Source: Chloracidobacterium validum
GTDB taxonomy: Bacteria > Acidobacteriota > Blastocatellia > Chloracidobacteriales > Chloracidobacteriaceae
NCBI RefSeq assembly: GCF_018304825.1
Contig: NZ_CP072648.1
Location: 1,843,501-1,907,500, forward strand
Length of the DNA stretch: 64,000 nt
Direction of reading: 5' to 3'
In this document: in pieces, positions 28,763 to 37,210 of the stretch
Numbering within the stretch: the first letter of the stretch is position 1
Layout: every line of letters starts with the position of its first letter
Program-made: the position numbers and the translations under genes
Notes under the pieces: generated by a model
Database searches by the model: none
What the model saw: only the letters and a program-made list of their open reading frames with translations
Told to the model about the DNA's origin: nothing

Positions 28763-28840
28763 CGAACTTAGGTGCAAGGCAGCTTGTGCATACGATTCGA
28801 CCACGCAAGCGGTCTGAACAACCTACCTGGAGATCCCCCT

Positions 28841-30115
28841 ATGGCGTCGTTGAATGTCATCCGCGAGGCGAGTTGTGCTGAAGGCTTCTGCTCGCTGGGC
28901 TGTATTGCTTGGCTCTACCGCAAAATTCGCGGTTCGTTTTTCCTCATCGTGGGCAGTCATACTTGCCAGTACTTCATGCAATCGGCGTTGAGCGTGATGA
29001 TTTTTTCCGAACCACGCTTTGCCACAGCCATTATCGAAGAAAGCGACTTGGCAGCGAAAACCGCCGACTTCGCCCACCTCGAACTCGACCGCATCGTGGG
29101 TGACATCGTGCGGGAGTACAACCCGACCATCGTGTTTCTGGTTGGCACGTGCCCGGCCGAGATTATCAAGGTTGACCTCCAGAACATCGGCGAAATGCTG
29201 ACGCAAAAATACGGTCGCCCGGTGATGTTCGCGCCGGTTTCCGGGCTTGAACACACCTTTACCCAAGGTGAGGACGGGGTGTTGCAGGCACTGCTCACCA
29301 TTTCACCCGAAGAAGCGCCCGGCACGGCGCGGGAGCTACTCCTGGTCGGCGCGGTCGGCGACCTCGTGGAAGATGAAATCCTGGAGCAACTCGCCGAACT
29401 CGGCATTCCGGTGCGCGGTGTCTTGCCAGCCCGTGATCCCCGCCGCTTGCCGGCCATTGGGCCGAATACGGTCGCCGTCGCGCTTCAGCCTTACCTTTCC
29501 ATGACCATGAACGCGCTCAAGCGCCGGGGTGTGGAAGTCCTTGCCTGCCGAACGCCCATCGGCCCGGCGGCAACCCGGCAGTTTTACGAAGCCATTTGCC
29601 GCGCCTTTGGGAAAGAGCCACCAGACCGCCTGGTGGAACTCGAAGCCGAGGCCTGGGAACGGATCGGGCCGGAGCGCGAAATGCTCATCGGCAAACGCAT
29701 TGCCATCATTGGTGATAACCTGCTCGAACTGCCCATTGCCAACTTGCTCTATGAAATGGGGGCGGAGATTGTCGAACTTTCAACGCCTTACTTCAACCGC
29801 AAAGCCATGGCAGCCGATGTTGCCTGCCTGCCGGATGGACTGACGCTTTACGAGAAACCAGATGTGATCGCGCAAGCCGAGCGGGTGATTGCCCTCAAGC
29901 CCGACCTGACCATCTGTGGGCTGGGGCTGGCCAACCCGTTCGAGTCGCGCGGACTTCCAACCAAGTGGTCAATCGAGTTCACGTTCACGCCGATCCACGG
30001 CTTCAAGCATGCCAAAGACCTTGCGGAAATCATTGCGCGGCCTGTCCGCCGTGGGAACTTGATGGCGCAACGTGGCTGGTATGTTGACCAATCCGCGCCC
30101 CGCGTCCCGGCCTAA
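28841..30115 (+). CDS. bchN: Light-independent protochlorophyllide reductase subunit N
   Basis: 424 residues from ATG 28841 (GGAGA about eight bases upstream). It is a NifD/NifE-like protein. The cysteine ligands of the bridging [4Fe-4S] cluster are visible at C17 (GFCSLGC), C42 (GSHTCQYF) and C104 (VGTCPAE). Their spacing (25 and 62) is close to the 25 and 61 of Rhodobacter capsulatus BchN. With BchB it forms the catalytic heterotetramer that reduces ring D of protochlorophyllide, receiving electrons from the BchL ATPase. This allows chlorophyll synthesis in the dark and at low oxygen. bchB follows after 100 bases; bchL is not in the window. The call is firm. Confidence 0.96.
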   Translation: MASLNVIREASCAEGFCSLGCIAWLYRKIRGSFFLIVGSHTCQYFMQSALSVMIFSEPRFATAIIEESDLAAKTADFAHLELDRIVGDIVREYNPTIVFLVGTCPAEIIKVDLQNIGEMLTQKYGRPVMFAPVSGLEHTFTQGEDGVLQALLTISPEEAPGTARELLLVGAVGDLVEDEILEQLAELGIPVRGVLPARDPRRLPAIGPNTVAVALQPYLSMTMNALKRRGVEVLACRTPIGPAATRQFYEAICRAFGKEPPDRLVELEAEAWERIGPEREMLIGKRIAIIGDNLLELPIANLLYEMGAEIVELSTPYFNRKAMAADVACLPDGLTLYEKPDVIAQAERVIALKPDLTICGLGLANPFESRGLPTKWSIEFTFTPIHGFKHAKDLAEIIARPVRRGNLMAQRGWYVDQSAPRVPA

Positions 30116-30215: not shown

Positions 30216-31865
30216 ATGCGATTGCACTATTGGACGTATGAAGGTCCGGCCCACGTCGGCGCGTGTCGGGTGGGAACCTCAATCCCCGGCGTACATACCG
30301 TGCTCCATGCGCCCGGCGGCGACTCTTACACCAGCGTGTTGTTCACCATGATTGACCGGCAGTGCGGATTTCCAACCGTGACGAACGTCAGTTACGGACG
30401 CAAGGAAGTTTCCACCACCGGCGTGGACCGGATGATGACTGTTGTCGAGCAAGTCGAACGAACGCACAAGCCGCGGGTCATCCAGGTGATTCCAACGTGT
30501 ACGTCCAACCTGCTCCGGGAAGACGTTGGCGGCGCCCTCAATCGCTTACAGCCCCAGTGCGAGGCCCAGCTCGTCTTCCTGCAACTCAATGCGTTCTGCG
30601 AAAAGGAAGACCAGGGCGCGGATATGACCTTTGCCGGACTGGTTGAACAGTTGGCAACGGGCAGCGCGGAACGGACGCCGGAGCCAAGCGTCAACATTCT
30701 CGGCCTCACCAGCCTCGGTTTCCGCCACCGGGATGACCTACGGGAAATCACGCAGATGCTTCACCAGTGCGGGATTCGGGTCAACGCGGCGCTGCCCTTT
30801 GGCGGCTCGGCCGCCGACTTTCACCGCCTAGGACATGCCTGGTTCAACATCGTGCCCTATGCCGAGATTGGGCTGCGCGCGGCCAAGGTGCTGGAGCAAC
30901 GCTTCGGGCAGCCCTACCTGGCCCATGCCCCAATCGGCATTCAAGCCACTCAGGAATTCATTGAACTTGTGCAAGCCAAAGTCGAAGAACTCGGTGGGAA
31001 AACCACCAACTTCCGCCCCCGCCCAGAAACCATGAGCCGTGTCCCATGGTATTCCCGCTCGGCCGACAGCCACTACCTAACGCCGAAACGGTCATTCGTC
31101 TTTGGCGTCGCGTCCCACGCACTCGCCGTCGCTCGGATGATGGAAGAAGAAATTGGCATGCGCCCCCTGGCCGTTGGGACATTCTCCTACGAGCATTCGG
31201 AAGCTTTTCTGAATGAATGTCAGCGCCGTGGTTGGCAGGGTTTTTACTCCGATGACTTCAAAGAGGTTGAACGACAGATTTCAGACCTCATGCCCGACCT
31301 TGTCTTGGGAACCCAAATGGAACGCCATTCAGCGCGACGGCATGAACTGCCGGCGACCGTCATCAGTTGCCCAGCTCACGTCACCGACTTTCCGGCTCGC
31401 TATTCTCCATTTGCAGGTTGGGAAGGCGCTAATGTAATCTTCGACGCAGTAACGCACACATTGACGCTTGGTTTGGAATCGCACTTGATTGATATGTTCC
31501 GCGAAGTACCGGGCGCAGAACATGACTCAGTACTCGGCGCTGTCAGATTGCCAGACTTGCCGCCGGATTCGCCGTCGCCAACGGGTGCCGTCACCAGTGG
31601 GACATCACGCCCGACTGAGCCGGCGGGAGCCACCCAAGCGGCGACGCCAACCGCAGTTGCCACGCCCCCCCAGGCAGTAGCGGCAGGTGAATGGTCCGGT
31701 GATCCACGGTGGACGGATGAGGCGCTAGCGGAGTTGAAAAAAATTCCTTTCTTCATCCGTAAGAAGGCAATGCACAACACTGAGAAATACGCCCGTGAGC
31801 ATGGGCTGCGTGAGATCCTCCCTCAGACCATTCACGCCACGCGGGATGAACTGTCACGCAAGTGA
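30216..31865 (+). CDS. bchB: Light-independent protochlorophyllide reductase subunit B
   Basis: 549 residues; AGGAG nine bases before ATG 30216. The N-terminus MRLHYWTYEGPAHVGACRVG is canonical. D36 (HAPGGDSY) is the unusual aspartate ligand of the BchNB cluster, and IPTCTSNLLRED carries the P-cluster-like site. D284 in RSADSHYLT falls where the proposed proton-donor Asp of R. capsulatus BchB lies (alignment by eye). The C-terminal 55 residues (WTDEALAELKKIPFFIRKKA onward) form the PCP_red domain, separated by a Pro/Ala/Thr-rich linker (about 445-495). The usual FGDATH stretch reads FGVASH here. It forms the enzyme with BchN. Confidence 0.97.
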   Translation: MRLHYWTYEGPAHVGACRVGTSIPGVHTVLHAPGGDSYTSVLFTMIDRQCGFPTVTNVSYGRKEVSTTGVDRMMTVVEQVERTHKPRVIQVIPTCTSNLLREDVGGALNRLQPQCEAQLVFLQLNAFCEKEDQGADMTFAGLVEQLATGSAERTPEPSVNILGLTSLGFRHRDDLREITQMLHQCGIRVNAALPFGGSAADFHRLGHAWFNIVPYAEIGLRAAKVLEQRFGQPYLAHAPIGIQATQEFIELVQAKVEELGGKTTNFRPRPETMSRVPWYSRSADSHYLTPKRSFVFGVASHALAVARMMEEEIGMRPLAVGTFSYEHSEAFLNECQRRGWQGFYSDDFKEVERQISDLMPDLVLGTQMERHSARRHELPATVISCPAHVTDFPARYSPFAGWEGANVIFDAVTHTLTLGLESHLIDMFREVPGAEHDSVLGAVRLPDLPPDSPSPTGAVTSGTSRPTEPAGATQAATPTAVATPPQAVAAGEWSGDPRWTDEALAELKKIPFFIRKKAMHNTEKYAREHGLREILPQTIHATRDELSRK

Positions 31866-31926: not shown

Positions 31927-33000
31927 ATGGGTCTTTACATCGCGATTGGTTTAGTCGTTGTCATTCTCGTTGGCGCCGTCGCATTCTTTTTACTCAAAAG
32001 CAAAAAACCGGAGGAAGCGGGCCTAGGGCTGACTGGAGGCGCGCCGCCAGCCCTAGACAATCGCGCTGAGGAACAGCGCCGACTCGAAGAACAACGCCGT
32101 GCCGAGGAAGCTACCCGGCTTGCCGCCGAAGAAGCCCGCCGTGCTGAGGAGCAGCGCCGACTCGAAGAGCAACGCCGCGCTGAGGAAGCTGCCCGGCTTG
32201 CTGCCGAGGAAGCCCGCCGTGCTGAGGAGCAGCGCCGCGCTGAAGAACAACGCCGTGCTGAAGAACAACGCCGTGCTGAGGAGCAGCGCCGACTCGAAGA
32301 GCAACGCCGCGCTGAGGAAGCTGCCCGGCTTGCTGCCGAGGAAGCCCGCCGTGCCGAGGAGCAACGCCGACTCGAAGAGCAACGCCGCGCCGAGGAAGCC
32401 GCCCGGCTTGCTGCCGAGGAAGCCCGCCGTGCCGAGGAACAACGCCGACTCGAAGAGCAACGCCGCGCCGAGGAAGCCGCCCGGCTTGCTGCCGAGGAAG
32501 CCCGCCGCGCTGAAGAAGCCCGCCGTGCCCTGGAAGCGCAACAGCGAGCGCAGCCGGTTCCAGACTTCGATGTCAACAAGGTGGCCGACCCACCACCACC
32601 CCCAACGACGGGGGAAACTGAGATTCCAGCGTACTTCACGCCACCAGGCAACCAAACCGTTCCGGCTGGCGGACAAGTGGCGGTTGGTGCAAGCCAGCCA
32701 TCACAGCACAAAGCCAGCGAAGACCTGCACAAGATCGCCCAGCGGGTGGCGCGGACGATTGTCAGTGACATCAAAATCTACAATCCGCAGAAAATTGAGC
32801 AGGGCATTGCCCAGAAAAACCTCTATGACCTGCTCAAGAAAGAGTTTGACAGCAGCATCAAAACCTATGAGGACCGAGCTGATCCGCAGGTGCGTGCTGA
32901 GTCAAACTACCTGTATGAACATATCGTCAAGTCACTCTGCAATGGCGACCCATCCGTGCTGGGCATCAACTTCCCCATGGACAAGTTCCGCCAGCCATAA
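31927..33000 (+). CDS. Membrane-anchored Glu/Arg repeat coiled-coil protein with a conserved-looking C-terminal helical domain
   Basis: 357 residues, AAGGAG eleven bases before the ATG. A single N-terminal membrane helix (about 3-22) is followed by a highly charged stretch (about 40-205) made of AEEQRR, LEEQRR and AEEAARLAAEEARR units, which should form one long helix, TolA-like in appearance. A Pro-rich linker (about 218-250) leads to a C-terminal domain (about 260-340, KIAQRVARTIVSDIKIYNP). That kind of domain I associate with acidobacterial and delta-proteobacterial regulators, but I cannot name it with certainty. It lies 61 bases after bchB on the same strand and ahead of a terminator, so it may share the bch transcript. 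TolA homology is not supported beyond composition. Confidence 0.6.
   Translation: MGLYIAIGLVVVILVGAVAFFLLKSKKPEEAGLGLTGGAPPALDNRAEEQRRLEEQRRAEEATRLAAEEARRAEEQRRLEEQRRAEEAARLAAEEARRAEEQRRAEEQRRAEEQRRAEEQRRLEEQRRAEEAARLAAEEARRAEEQRRLEEQRRAEEAARLAAEEARRAEEQRRLEEQRRAEEAARLAAEEARRAEEARRALEAQQRAQPVPDFDVNKVADPPPPPTTGETEIPAYFTPPGNQTVPAGGQVAVGASQPSQHKASEDLHKIAQRVARTIVSDIKIYNPQKIEQGIAQKNLYDLLKKEFDSSIKTYEDRADPQVRAESNYLYEHIVKSLCNGDPSVLGINFPMDKFRQP
32101..32544 (+). repeat. Tandem 78-bp repeats with an internal 18-bp expansion
   Basis: A 78-bp unit (26 codons, AEEAARLAAEEARRAEEQRR plus LEEQRR) occurs at 32101-32178, 32179-32310 (with three extra 18-bp AEEQRR units), 32311-32388, 32389-32466 and a diverged partial copy from 32467. 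Units 3 and 4 are nearly identical at DNA level, so the array is recent or homogenised and is a likely site of length change between strains. Confidence 0.9.
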
Positions 33001-33097: not shown

Positions 33098-36000
33098 TTA
33101 CCTGGAACGAACTTCCCCAATGACTTGCCATACGCTGTGCCGCCGCCGAATCCAGTAACGGAGCAGGTCCACGCGGTAGGCAAAGGTTTCATCGCCGTGT
33201 TTTTCGAGTACTTCGTTGCGGAATAGTTCTTCAAGCGTCAAACGAATGGTCGTTTCGGAGAGCGTTACCGGATAGTTTGACTCGGCAATCCGCGCTACCA
33301 GTCGCCCGGCCGTGATGACATCGTTTTCGTCAATCAAGGTGTCGGCAGCCAACGCCAAGACCAATTTTTCGTCATCGCTCAACCCATCCCAGAAATACAT
33401 CATTTGCGGGAGCGGGTTATTAACCACTTCTTCGACGATTGTAAGAACATCGGCACGCAATACGTAGTGCCGCTCTTGCTCGTTGAGCAAGTCAACGATG
33501 TTTTGGCAGAGCACCTGCGTGTAAAATGGTTGCCCGGCTGTCAGCCGGACGATCGCATCCACCACGCCACGCCCATAGACGACGCAATCCTTGACCGGGT
33601 CTGTAATCAGACGCCGGGTGTCATTCGGCGTCAGGTAAGACACTTTGCGAAAGAGCGACCGGCGCAGCAGGTCACGCCAGAAACGCCGATCCCGGTCTTC
33701 GAGTCGCCGCGACCCGGTAAAGACAAACGACAACCGCTCGTGGCGGTCGAGCAAGCTTGCCAGAAAGGGCAGCAAGTCACGCGAGAGCTTGCCATCTTCA
33801 ACTTTTGTTTCAAACAGCTCGTACTCATCCACCAACCACACCATTTGCCGGTTGCCAATGTGCCGCAATGCCGCGCCGATGAAATCTCGAAACCGGTCAT
33901 ACGGGTTGCCAGAGTGTCCGCCGGACTCGGCGGTGAAGTCCTGCCCAGACTCAGGCAGCGGGTCGAGGGGCAACCGCGCGAGGGCTTCCGTGATCAGCCG
34001 GGCAACCCGGTTGAAAAACTCACCGTCACTCCGAACGAGCATTTCCTGCATGTCAATGAAAACCGGGGCGAAGGCTTCGCCCAGTCGTCCATTCGCAATC
34101 TGGTAGAGAATGGAGCTTTTTCCGGTGCGGCGCTCACCGCAAAATACGATGACCAAGCCCTGCGGTGTGCCTTCGAGCTTGCGCGCGACATATTGGAAAT
34201 CGTCTTCTCGCCCAAAGAACATGGCCTGCGAGCGAATGGGGTTCCCGACAACATAGGGATTGCGCCCGATGGGGGTGAACTTGCGCAGGGCCGGCGGCAG
34301 CACGTACTCGCGGCTGCGCGCGCGCTGCACAAACCAAGCGCCGGTTCCCCCGCCGGTCATGACCAGCACGCAGACCGCCCAGAACCAACCGCGTAAGTAA
34401 AAAGGTGGATCAATCCACACGATGTAGCGCTGCACAGGCGCATGGCGGCCATACAAGTCACGGCTCAGGGCGCGAACCTCAAAAACATGCTCGCCGGCCG
34501 GGAGACCCGACACGGCATATTCAACGGGCACGGTGACGGCGCTATCTGGTGAAACCTGTCGCCAGTCCGCGTCACGGCCAGCGATTCGGTAGAAGTACGT
34601 GATGGGTCCAGCTTGACTCACCGCCGCGAAGCGAAATTTCAGGCGATGAAAACCGGCACGGAGTGAAACCTTTTTCCCCGTGGCTTCCGTGCCAGCCACG
34701 TCCAGGGCATCCGCTTCCGCGCCATCCACTTCCAGGCGAATGTCCACCGTCGGCGGGCGGGGATTCGGGCGATGCCGCACCAACCCGGCATCCGTTGCCA
34801 TCCAGATGACGCCATCCTGGGTTTCCACCATCATTCGCAGACGTGGACCGCCTAAATCGTAGTGGTCGCGCCGATAGGTCTGCACCACGGTTTCATTGTC
34901 GAGCAAAAATTTGCGCAGGTTGCCGTCCCGCAGCCCAACCCACAGAAAAGACTCCAACGGGTCTGGCTCAACATAGAGTGACTGCACATCTCCCCCCTGC
35001 ACCGCCGCGCGAAACCCATCTGGGACAAAACCCACGCCATCGAAGGTCTCTATGCCCCGTCCGGTTGCCAACCAAAAGCGGCCGGCTCGTGGCTGCTCGA
35101 CGATGGCGCGCACATCGAGGCTTTCCAGCCCAAGTGTGGCGCCGATGACAACGAGTTCAGCCGTGCTTGGCTCGTAACGGTACGCACCCTCGCTGGTGGC
35201 AAGCCACACGGCCCCGGAGCGGGAGAGCATGGCCATGCGGACTTCCCCATCGAGCGGAATGGCTTCGCTATCCAACTTGAGCGTTTCAGGGTCGAGTTTG
35301 AACAGGGCTTTTGCGGTTGCCACCCAGAGCGTTTGGCGCGTCGCGTCGAGGAGCAGTGAGCGCACTTGGGCAAAGGGCCGGTCGCCAGCGCTCACCGGTC
35401 GGACGCTGGACCCATCCCACAGCCAAAGCCCTTGTTCCGCTCCAACCCACAGACGCTGGTCGGTCGCCAGCAAGGCCCGAACCGCCAGCGTTGACAGCTC
35501 CGGGCGCAGGCTCTGGAACTGAATCCCATCAAAGGCATAGACGCCGCGCGCGGTGCCCACCCAGAGACCACGCCCATCGGCGCGCGGCGCGATCGCGTAA
35601 ACATCGCTGTCAGGCAGTCCCCGGCTGGTGTCAAACACCACAAAACTGTAGGCATCATGCCGCAGCGCCCCGTTGCGGGTGGCAAACCAGATGTTTTGTT
35701 CGAGGTCACAGGTCACACTGGTGACGTCGGTATCCGTGAGAAGTTCCGCCGTCTCGTTCCGGCGCGGGTCATAGACCAGAACACCCCGCCCGTCGGCGCG
35801 GGCGCACCACACCCGCCCCTCACTGTCCACACAGCAAGCGCGCAATGGCTGCTGGAGCAGCGCGCCGGACACCGCAGTGAGGGGTCCACCCGGCGGAGCC
35901 ATCCACAATCCAGTTGCGGTGGCGCACCACAGCGTCGGCTCATAGGGATCGGCGGCGATGCCATACACTGCCTCGGTGGTCGGTTGGGTGAGCCAAGGTA

Positions 36001-37210
36001 GCCGTTCCCAAGCTTGCCCCGGCTGCCACCAAAACAACCCCAGCCCGCTGGCTACGGCAAGTCCTCCGCCGGGCAGCGCCTGAAGCGCCGTGACCGGCGT
36101 TGTCCCGATTTCAGCCATCCACGCGCTATGTGGCGCAGACGGCGAGTAGCGATACAGCCCGCTTTCCGCGCCGACCCAGAGTTCACCACCAGTTCCGGGC
36201 AGGAGACACCGAACATTGGGGATGGATTCGTCACGGAACACAACCGCTGTGGCGTCTGGCGGTAACGCGGCCAAGCCGCTGGACGTGCCAAACCACAATG
36301 TGCCATCAGCAGCGCGCGCCAGCGCCGTCACCGATCTTCCGGCCAGCCGAGAGAGCTTTGACTCTGGCGTTTCCGATGACCAAAAGGCTTGTCCATCAAA
36401 GCGGCACACCCCGGCGGAAGTGCCAAACCACACACTGCCATCACGGTCGGCGAAAACGGTTTGAACCTGATTGCTTGGCAAGCGTGGCGTGACGAACGAA
36501 CGATCCAGGCTGCGGACACCCAGCGGAATCGTGGAAACCCGGCTCAGAAGCAACGTCAACTCCATCGTCGTCCGCTCGCCGGTGATGACGGTCTCGACGG
36601 TTTTGGCTTCGTAGCCGGTCACAACCGCGGTGACTTCATACGTGCCGGCTTCCATGCGCCCAAAGAAGTACTCGCCCCGCCGTCCTTCAAGGGCGCGCAG
36701 GGCGCTCACTTCCCGCCGCTCCTTGAGGCGCGCGGTGACGATGGCGCCGGACATCACGGTGCTGGTTCGCCCGTCACGCACGGCCACCCGGAGCGAACTC
36801 GGCGACAACTGAAGCTTGATGTCACCCACGGCTTCATCTGGACGATTGAGGGTGACAGCCTGCGTTTGCGGACGATAGCCACTCACGGTTGCGGTCAGCA
36901 CATACTTGCCGGTTCGCGGGATGGAAAAGGCAAAGCGCCCATCGCCAGTCGTAAGCAGGGAGGCAGTCGGAAAGTTTGGTCCTGCGCAGGTCACTTTGGC
37001 ATCCGCCATCGGCGCGCCCGTCTCGCTCACGACCAGGCCACTGATGGTCAACCCCGGCGTGGTAGGTGACTGCGCGATCAGTTTCCCGCCCAGTGCCGCC
37101 AACCAGAGCATCAGCCACCCACCGATAAACCAGCCAACTGTGCGGCCGCGGCCGCTCACACTCGACAACTTGTACTGTTCCGGCTTTCCCACGGCGAAGT
37201 ATAATTGCAT
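33098..37210 (-). CDS. Giant transmembrane sensor-like protein: carboxypeptidase-regulatory-like repeats, two-component-type beta-propeller, Y_Y_Y domain, membrane helix and a STAND/ORC-like P-loop NTPase
   Basis: 1370 residues. Signal-anchor (about 26-46); two carboxypeptidase-regulatory-like beta domains (about 50-220); a long array of propeller blades (about 240-830) with repeated LWFGTSSGLAAL / LWVGTARGVYAF patterns as in Reg_prop sensors; a Y_Y_Y domain (about 850-930); one membrane helix (about 937-958); then a cytoplasmic NTPase. This has MFFGRE at its entry, Walker A GERRTGKSS (about 1026-1034), Walker B VWLVDEYE (about 1123-1130) and FVFTGSR, followed by winged-helix-like segments. 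The outer half is that of hybrid two-component sensors, but the inner half is an NTPase in place of a histidine kinase. It is divergent from the FFLEELY-type gene. Domain order is clear; ligand and output are unknown. Confidence 0.85.
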   Translation of the reverse strand: MQLYFAVGKPEQYKLSSVSGRGRTVGWFIGGWLMLWLAALGGKLIAQSPTTPGLTISGLVVSETGAPMADAKVTCAGPNFPTASLLTTGDGRFAFSIPRTGKYVLTATVSGYRPQTQAVTLNRPDEAVGDIKLQLSPSSLRVAVRDGRTSTVMSGAIVTARLKERREVSALRALEGRRGEYFFGRMEAGTYEVTAVVTGYEAKTVETVITGERTTMELTLLLSRVSTIPLGVRSLDRSFVTPRLPSNQVQTVFADRDGSVWFGTSAGVCRFDGQAFWSSETPESKLSRLAGRSVTALARAADGTLWFGTSSGLAALPPDATAVVFRDESIPNVRCLLPGTGGELWVGAESGLYRYSPSAPHSAWMAEIGTTPVTALQALPGGGLAVASGLGLFWWQPGQAWERLPWLTQPTTEAVYGIAADPYEPTLWCATATGLWMAPPGGPLTAVSGALLQQPLRACCVDSEGRVWCARADGRGVLVYDPRRNETAELLTDTDVTSVTCDLEQNIWFATRNGALRHDAYSFVVFDTSRGLPDSDVYAIAPRADGRGLWVGTARGVYAFDGIQFQSLRPELSTLAVRALLATDQRLWVGAEQGLWLWDGSSVRPVSAGDRPFAQVRSLLLDATRQTLWVATAKALFKLDPETLKLDSEAIPLDGEVRMAMLSRSGAVWLATSEGAYRYEPSTAELVVIGATLGLESLDVRAIVEQPRAGRFWLATGRGIETFDGVGFVPDGFRAAVQGGDVQSLYVEPDPLESFLWVGLRDGNLRKFLLDNETVVQTYRRDHYDLGGPRLRMMVETQDGVIWMATDAGLVRHRPNPRPPTVDIRLEVDGAEADALDVAGTEATGKKVSLRAGFHRLKFRFAAVSQAGPITYFYRIAGRDADWRQVSPDSAVTVPVEYAVSGLPAGEHVFEVRALSRDLYGRHAPVQRYIVWIDPPFYLRGWFWAVCVLVMTGGGTGAWFVQRARSREYVLPPALRKFTPIGRNPYVVGNPIRSQAMFFGREDDFQYVARKLEGTPQGLVIVFCGERRTGKSSILYQIANGRLGEAFAPVFIDMQEMLVRSDGEFFNRVARLITEALARLPLDPLPESGQDFTAESGGHSGNPYDRFRDFIGAALRHIGNRQMVWLVDEYELFETKVEDGKLSRDLLPFLASLLDRHERLSFVFTGSRRLEDRDRRFWRDLLRRSLFRKVSYLTPNDTRRLITDPVKDCVVYGRGVVDAIVRLTAGQPFYTQVLCQNIVDLLNEQERHYVLRADVLTIVEEVVNNPLPQMMYFWDGLSDDEKLVLALAADTLIDENDVITAGRLVARIAESNYPVTLSETTIRLTLEELFRNEVLEKHGDETFAYRVDLLRYWIRRRHSVWQVIGEVRSR

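Follow-up and report, generated by a model that had tools for sequence, protein, structure and literature searches.

The closest described relative of the system reported here is a mobile two-gene operon, found computationally, in which both proteins carry a STAND core (Kaur, Iyer, Burroughs and Aravind 2021, eLife, PMC8195603). As that paper's main text describes it, one of the two nucleoside triphosphatases (NTPases) is eroded, most commonly fused to a GT4 or HEPN domain, and a role in countering invaders is predicted. A second relative is the hybrid two-component system with Reg_prop and Y_Y_Y domains in its outer half. Otherwise, STAND switches are familiar chiefly from immunity, cell death and the control of transcription. 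Here we describe a gene, denoted R, in a 64,000-nucleotide stretch of Chloracidobacterium validum DNA (the window; C1:1843501-1907500 of a 3.66 Mb genome in two contigs), which encodes a propeller ectodomain joined through one membrane helix to a STAND-type NTPase. R is inherited together with a second gene, denoted T, which encodes a related NTPase and, in this genome, a PknB-like kinase. We propose that R is the receptor half of a two-protein signalling module, in which the NTPase of R engages that of T and activates the enzyme that T carries; we give this reading a probability of about 0.6.

R is a single frame of 1370 amino acids from ATG to stop, with the following parts.

33098..37210 (-): whole receptor NTPase gene R, 1370 amino acids, from the reading frame, Pfam and orthologue searches
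37073..37129 (-): N-terminal signal anchor, residues 28-46, by hydropathy
36809..37048 (-): carboxypeptidase-regulatory-like domain, residues 55-134, by Pfam; a second stretch at about 140-224 by reading
34631..36529 (-): Reg_prop beta-propeller region, about residues 228-860, by Pfam; limits approximate
34457..34603 (-): weak Y_Y_Y-like domain, residues 870-918, by Pfam, under cut-off
34328..34384 (-): transmembrane helix, residues 943-961, by hydropathy
33101..34306 (-): predicted STAND-type NTPase and winged helix, residues 969-1370, from AlphaFold2, structure matches and alignments
34202..34219 (-): GRED motif preceding Walker A (FFGRED), residues 998-1003, in the alignment
34112..34138 (-): Walker A GERRTGKSS, residues 1025-1033, in the alignment
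33818..33841 (-): Walker B VWLVDEYE, residues 1124-1131, in the alignment
33515..33538 (-): GxP motif AGQPFYTQ, residues 1225-1232, in the alignment
33140..33376 (-): winged-helix-like segment, about residues 1279-1357, from the helix and strand order of the AlphaFold2 model

Most of this anatomy had been proposed in a sequence-only reading of the window, and it was borne out. A hidden Markov model search of the full protein against Pfam found the long Reg_prop propeller (90.2 bits, cut-off 20.4) and carboxypeptidase-regulatory-like domains (CarboxypepD_reg, 75.3 bits) in two stretches, while hydropathy gave the signal anchor and, ahead of the NTPase, the one membrane helix, which has the same position in the three orthologues of the class that were checked. 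A third hydropathy peak, at residues 686-704 within the propeller, is borderline. The Y_Y_Y domain of that reading missed its curated cut-off (17.5 against 26.6 bits), and the label is plausible for the weak match at residues 870-918.

Two other explanations of the chain were rejected. For a degenerate histidine kinase, Pfam gave no HATPase_c or HisKA match in R at E<=1, a second HATPase_c scan of the genome's open reading frames (ORFs) gave no match at the R frame, and the model has a STAND/ORC fold. A frame error fusing two genes at the membrane helix is contradicted by open frames of 1300-1446 amino acids in 18 of the 20 genomes of the class with a strong R, namely the window's own and 17 others. 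The two short frames (G013, 843 amino acids; G008, 158 amino acids) lie on short contigs, and the TGA counted in the R of G010 is the terminal position of its frame.

The same earlier reading had placed an NTPase, perhaps STAND-like, behind the membrane helix instead of a histidine kinase, and Pfam, the predicted structure and the structure matches all agree with it. An AlphaFold2 model of the R domain, made from 44 aligned R domains, had a predicted local distance difference test score (pLDDT) of 93.6 and a predicted template modelling score of 0.89. Compared by VIA-align, it fits 2qen with a Z-score of 23.2 over 332 residues (root-mean-square deviation 4.7), followed by 2fna (21.3), ORC2 1w5t (21.2), the NRC4 resistosome (18.2) and CED-4 (16.7). 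By sequence profile, the closest solved chains are 2fna and 2qen for R and 2fna for T. Pfam matches at residues 995-1230 of R (AAA_22 at 23.5 bits, nSTAND1, ATPase_2) are all under cut-off, and against nSTAND2 (PF20702, cut-off 24 bits) the window's R gave no match at E<=1 and one orthologue gave 20.1 bits.

STAND NTPases are said to be defined by an hhGRExE motif before Walker A, a Walker A, a Walker B that ends in D[DE], a GxP motif and a winged helix. The motifs FFGRE, GERRTGKSS and VWLVDEYE that had been picked out by eye are all present in R. The first reads FFGREDD, with the final E replaced by D, and its G and R are invariant in all 44 R rows, as are the GK and DE of the two Walker motifs. 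AGQPFYTQ supplies the GxP, which is complete in 36 of the 44 rows, the other eight being divergent, and the winged-helix topology is seen in the R model, which fits 2qen. As modelled, the inner half of R is thus a switch of the STAND/ORC type that includes a winged helix and whose catalytic motifs are conserved.

We searched the R NTPase in 58 genomes (the window's own and relatives) and in 162 genomes of the class. A strong orthologue was found in 20 of the latter, in four families (f1, f2, f3 and f6); 12 further genomes with weaker R-profile matches only, several of which hold divergent pairs, were set aside. Orthologues beyond the window's family (f1) are 55-60% identical in the NTPase and 29-33% in the ectodomain, and a near relative in Chloracidobacterium sp. 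CP2_5A is 85% identical in the NTPase.

This survey for the same architecture and its neighbours also yielded the partner, often adjoining R. All 20 genomes that have R gave, in the search with the R NTPase, a weaker second match as well, in an open frame of 644-726 amino acids, which is T. In the window's genome T is a protein of 670 amino acids at C1:493906-495918(-) (locus L040), 1.4 Mb from R. The suggestion that R is an undescribed system in itself therefore holds only in part, as R is one half of a system whose second gene lies elsewhere on the chromosome. In four T proteins scanned with Pfam, a protein kinase comes after an nSTAND2 domain that scores 213-485 bits against a cut-off of 24. 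The kinase has the fold, catalytic Lys, HRD and DFG of a PknB-like Ser/Thr kinase; its catalytic residues are invariant across 21 aligned sequences, and it matches Mycobacterium tuberculosis PknB with a Z-score of 35.7 at 41% identity. The T NTPase bears a signature of its own, SxFxNxF, downstream of a sensor-1-like strand, with S184, F186, N188 and F190 invariant over 48 rows. Neither NTPase is eroded, since the Walker A lysine and the Walker B aspartate are present in all 44 R and all 48 T sequences. In T, GK and the first D of Walker B are kept in every row, the second position reading DE in 38, DD in nine and DN in one.

R and T occur together in every sample. Among the 162 genomes of the class, 20 have a strong R, 21 a strong T and 20 both (a further 13, whose T-profile matches are weaker, are not counted), and the only genome with T and no R, G002, is 85% complete. 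In a sample of 396 genomes of the phylum, which partly overlaps the class sample, we took as R any profile match of at least 250 bits and as T any match of at least 130 bits that scored higher with the T profile than with the R profile. R was found in 28 of these genomes and T also in 27 of the 28 (as a fragment only in G234 and G442); in the exception, G317, the contig stops 50 bp past R. The lone genome with T and no R, G310, has a completeness of 82%, and the contig that carries its T measures 4.4 kb. Fourteen genomes with R-profile matches of 100-190 bits were set aside; in 13 of these the contig that bears the R-profile match also bears one to which the T profile gives the higher score. 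In a sample of 198 genomes of the spirochaete class, R (E<=1e-30) and T (E<=1e-20) were found in the identical 11 genomes, on one contig and one strand in all of them; eight of the 11 are of the kind used in building the profiles. Fisher tests gave 1e-24 for the class, 2e-39 for the phylum and 3e-18 for the spirochaetes, values that are overstated because the genomes are related and the thresholds were chosen after the scores had been seen. We regard a functional link between R and T as almost certain. The consistent inheritance of R with a kinase-bearing T suggests a signalling route into the cell that uses no histidine kinase.

Beyond the window's genus, R and T are usually neighbours on the same strand. 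Within the class, T lies within 2 kb after R on the same strand for nine of the 20 R genes, and two genomes (G008, G029) have too little sequence near R for linkage to be judged. Outside the class we examined 26 loci (L092-L117). At 19 of them R was called and the sequence continues for 2.4 kb or more beyond it; uncounted are L093 (where T is present and R was not called as an ORF), L094, L102, L109, L111 and L115 (contig ends), and L117 (a fragment). T follows R on the same strand within 1.1 kb in 17 of the 19, eight of these 17 being Spirochaetales and one, L116, scoring weakly (R 90 bits, T 30 bits). The divergent pairs of the class behave alike. At 11 of the 13 loci L066-L078 the two genes share a strand and lie no more than 1.1 kb from each other, and in six of the 11 they overlap by 4-7 bp or are separated by at most 3 bp; no R-T pair was found in the loci L077 and L078.

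The two NTPases are homologous (hhalign 8e-40, 20% identity), and in a tree built jointly from 44 R and 48 T domains R and T separate with a Shimodaira-Hasegawa-like approximate likelihood ratio support of 100, under a warning from the tool about long branches. Distances taken from this tree correlate between the two halves, with a rho of 0.91 for 37 pairs (0 of 2000 permutations), also among the 10 divergent pairs of the class alone (rho 0.71, 1 of 2000). R and T are two sister clades that co-vary. The divergent pairs L070 (f3) and L073 (f1) are sisters in both the R half and the T half, as expected if the pair moved as a unit.

Around this constant core the ends vary. The input of R is Reg_prop in Blastocatellia and in Desulfobacterales (L100), a periplasmic-binding protein in L092, PEGA placed after the NTPase and transmembrane helix in L098, L104 and L108, TPR in L094-L096, HEAT in L067 and an FG-GAP/PQQ-type propeller in L114. 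An R-type NTPase is joined to a type I methylase with specificity domain in L072, and several of L066-L078 have N-terminal membrane segments with GV-rich repeats. In the outside-facing receptors that were checked, a single transmembrane helix adjoins the NTPase, either before or after it. On the T side, Pfam places the kinase after the NTPase or before it (L095, L098), or a nucleotide cyclase before it (L104, and L070 barely over cut-off). Fifteen T proteins scanned carry Pkinase, Guanylate_cyc or no further Pfam domain; L100 and L113 have no recognised output, L113 having no room for one, and in L067 and L072 the C-terminal stretch of about 200 amino acids without a Pfam match could hold an unrecognised effector. 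Seven of eight canonical spirochaete genomes have two T genes; in L104 one T is bare and reads DDFH at Walker B, while the second carries the cyclase.

Several further features of these loci were recorded. GVAxGVAFGVA-like repeats occur in the N-terminal membrane part of the R-type proteins of L069, L071, L073, L074 and L078. A gene of about 300 codons lies between R and the first T in L104 (7965-8882) and also in L097, L099, L103, L105, L107 and L110; the L104 and L097 copies are alike by eye, with a signal-peptide-like start and no Pfam match, and this gene may be a third component in spirochaetes. At L072 (2198-7800) methylase, specificity domain and R-type NTPase form one chain of 1343 amino acids, overlapped by 4 bp by a T-type gene, possibly an NTPase-paired restriction variant. 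At L113 (4225-10651, Poribacteria) the R-T pair is followed by a caspase-PEGA gene. In genome G516 (L112, Halobeggiatoa) R and T types are mixed among 17 matches, an apparent expansion of the pair.

The reading of R as a receptor for T was built on what was computed here: the anatomy, the conserved motifs of both proteins, their co-occurrence and adjacency, the co-varying sister clades and the varied ends. In the mechanism that we propose, the propeller ectodomain would read a presumed ligand or a surface state, and the signal would cross the single transmembrane helix to shift the nucleotide state of the cytoplasmic STAND NTPase. The R NTPase would then engage the related NTPase of T, here the nSTAND2 part of an nSTAND2-PknB-like kinase, and the joint assembly would cluster T kinase domains at the membrane and so switch them on towards their putative targets. 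Elsewhere in the family the R-T core would bear other inputs and outputs. Direct contact between the two NTPases seems quite probable to us, and that R activates T by a nucleotide switch we consider somewhat favoured.

Several results weigh against this reading. No T lies beside R in six Chloracidobacterium genomes with R, nor in G007, G009 (where the contig ends 220 bp after R) and G017. Outside the class, L112 and L114 have R and no T within the locus; whole-genome searches place a T on the opposite strand in the genome of L114, roughly 6 kb away from R, and give 17 T-profile matches, part of them R proteins, in that of L112. Among the ORFs of the loci examined, including two frames of about 2100 amino acids (L139, L140), none is a single-chain fusion of R and T. 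The T model is of moderate quality (pLDDT 72.4), the distance correlation is modest over 15 pairs outside the class (rho 0.39, 43 of 2000 permutations), and co-inheritance among genomes that share kinship is no proof of contact between R and T.

Of the other readings, the one that survives best is that the pair belongs with the nSTAND2 operons directed against invaders, the ectodomain sensing an invader and the kinase leading to dormancy or death. T matches nSTAND2 at up to 485 bits, and in the main text of PMC8195603 the two-gene nSTAND2 operon is predicted to counter invaders; moreover, among related pairs there is one beside a caspase gene (L113) and one with a fused type I methylase and specificity domain (L072), and the L104 T cyclase weakly matches the PADLOC Pycsar cyclase (34.9 bits). 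The canonical pair, however, is single-copy and retained in four families of the class, neither NTPase is eroded, and many of the sensors are receptor-like (propeller, periplasmic-binding, PEGA). PADLOC gave no match for the window's R and one weak match (22 bits) for the L098 R, and its matches to T, among the 25 of 37 that were listed, all fall in the kinase part with nothing specific. Plasmids speak in the same direction: 855 of 72,556 records match T, in the kinase part and in some cases the residues just before it among the 10 matches listed, but none of the 72,556 covers 80% of T in one place. We consider a role in conflict or defence unlikely.

Co-occurrence carries no direction, and R and T might be linked the other way round, with the T kinase phosphorylating R or its partners and R acting as the output, for example as a surface-assembly or chaperone-type ATPase. 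The T proteins without a recognised output enzyme (L100, L113) would suit such an arrangement, but in most architectures scanned the sensor-like domains are on R and the enzymes on T, and we think it improbable. Least credible is a DNA-linked regulator: R and T would assemble in the manner of ORC/Cdc6 or of STAND transcription factors, their winged helices would bind DNA, and the kinase would be secondary. The R fold fits ORC/Cdc6 (1w5t) almost as well as STAND ATPases and a winged helix is present in the R model, but the R NTPase directly follows a transmembrane helix, the T proteins scanned have a kinase or a cyclase or show no further Pfam domain, and a winged helix also belongs to STAND switches such as CED-4, likewise matched.

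With R as the receptor and T as the transmitter, the pair can be compared with the known systems. Like the operon of PMC8195603, it consists in neighbouring genes of two proteins with a constant STAND module, and T falls in nSTAND2. Unlike that operon as its main text describes it, both R and T keep their NTP-binding motifs, sensors sit on R and kinase or cyclase on T, and neither GT4 nor HEPN was found in the 15 T proteins scanned. As to mobility, which is described for that operon, the canonical R/T pair persists in four families of the class, and a spread across several phyla suggests some transfer. Because neither the erosion nor the effector feature was found here, we treat R/T as a new, signalling form of two-gene STAND system rather than as a member of that operon; the separation follows the paper's main-text description, and R/T may overlap its supplementary neighbourhoods. 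The sequence-only reading had held that no characterised system has this build. For experiments this stands within the open-licence papers that we searched, among whose listed titles none described such pairs; two-gene operons with STAND modules in both products had, however, been identified by computation in 2021 (PMC8195603).

R shares its outer half with hybrid two-component systems but has no HisKA or HATPase_c, its inner half being an NTPase that goes with a second protein. It resembles the NLR and apoptosome switches (CED-4, NRC4) in its NTPase, helical and winged-helix fold and in a presumed nucleotide switch, and differs from them as a membrane receptor with an extracellular sensor and a second, enzyme-bearing STAND protein as its partner. 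The sequence-only reading had noted that hybrid two-component systems join such an outer half to a histidine kinase, and in the host genome this is not the usual partner. Scoring 150 of 181 candidates there gave 15 propeller ORFs besides R: seven end in SpoIIE, five in Pkinase and two in HisKA-HATPase_c, and the remaining one (L127, partial) has a kinase-like start by eye. Since at least five other propeller receptors bear a kinase directly, a propeller with a Ser/Thr kinase is normal for this organism, and R apparently reaches its kinase in trans. R thus has the same outer half as these fusions and, via T, the same kind of kinase, which in its case lies on a separate chain, presumably reached through the two NTPases.

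If true, this would be a modular bacterial signalling logic parallel to histidine kinase/response regulator pairs and run on STAND switches, and it would predict the activator of one group of PknB-like kinases and cyclases. Whether the pair amounts, in many phyla, to a general two-component system free of phosphotransfer, a hetero-assembly of receptor STAND and transmitter STAND with exchangeable sensors and enzymes, we put at even odds.

Near R in the window, two Oxidored_nitro proteins are encoded at 28772-30115 and 30216-31865 on the forward strand, the second with PCP_red; we take them to resemble bchN and bchB of dark protochlorophyllide reductase. The gene at 31927-33000 (+) encodes a protein of 357 amino acids that gave no Pfam match at 1e-4. 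Its N-terminus is hydrophobic, and it contains a long EEQRRAEEAARLAAEEARRA-type repeat with DNA periods from 18 bp upward.

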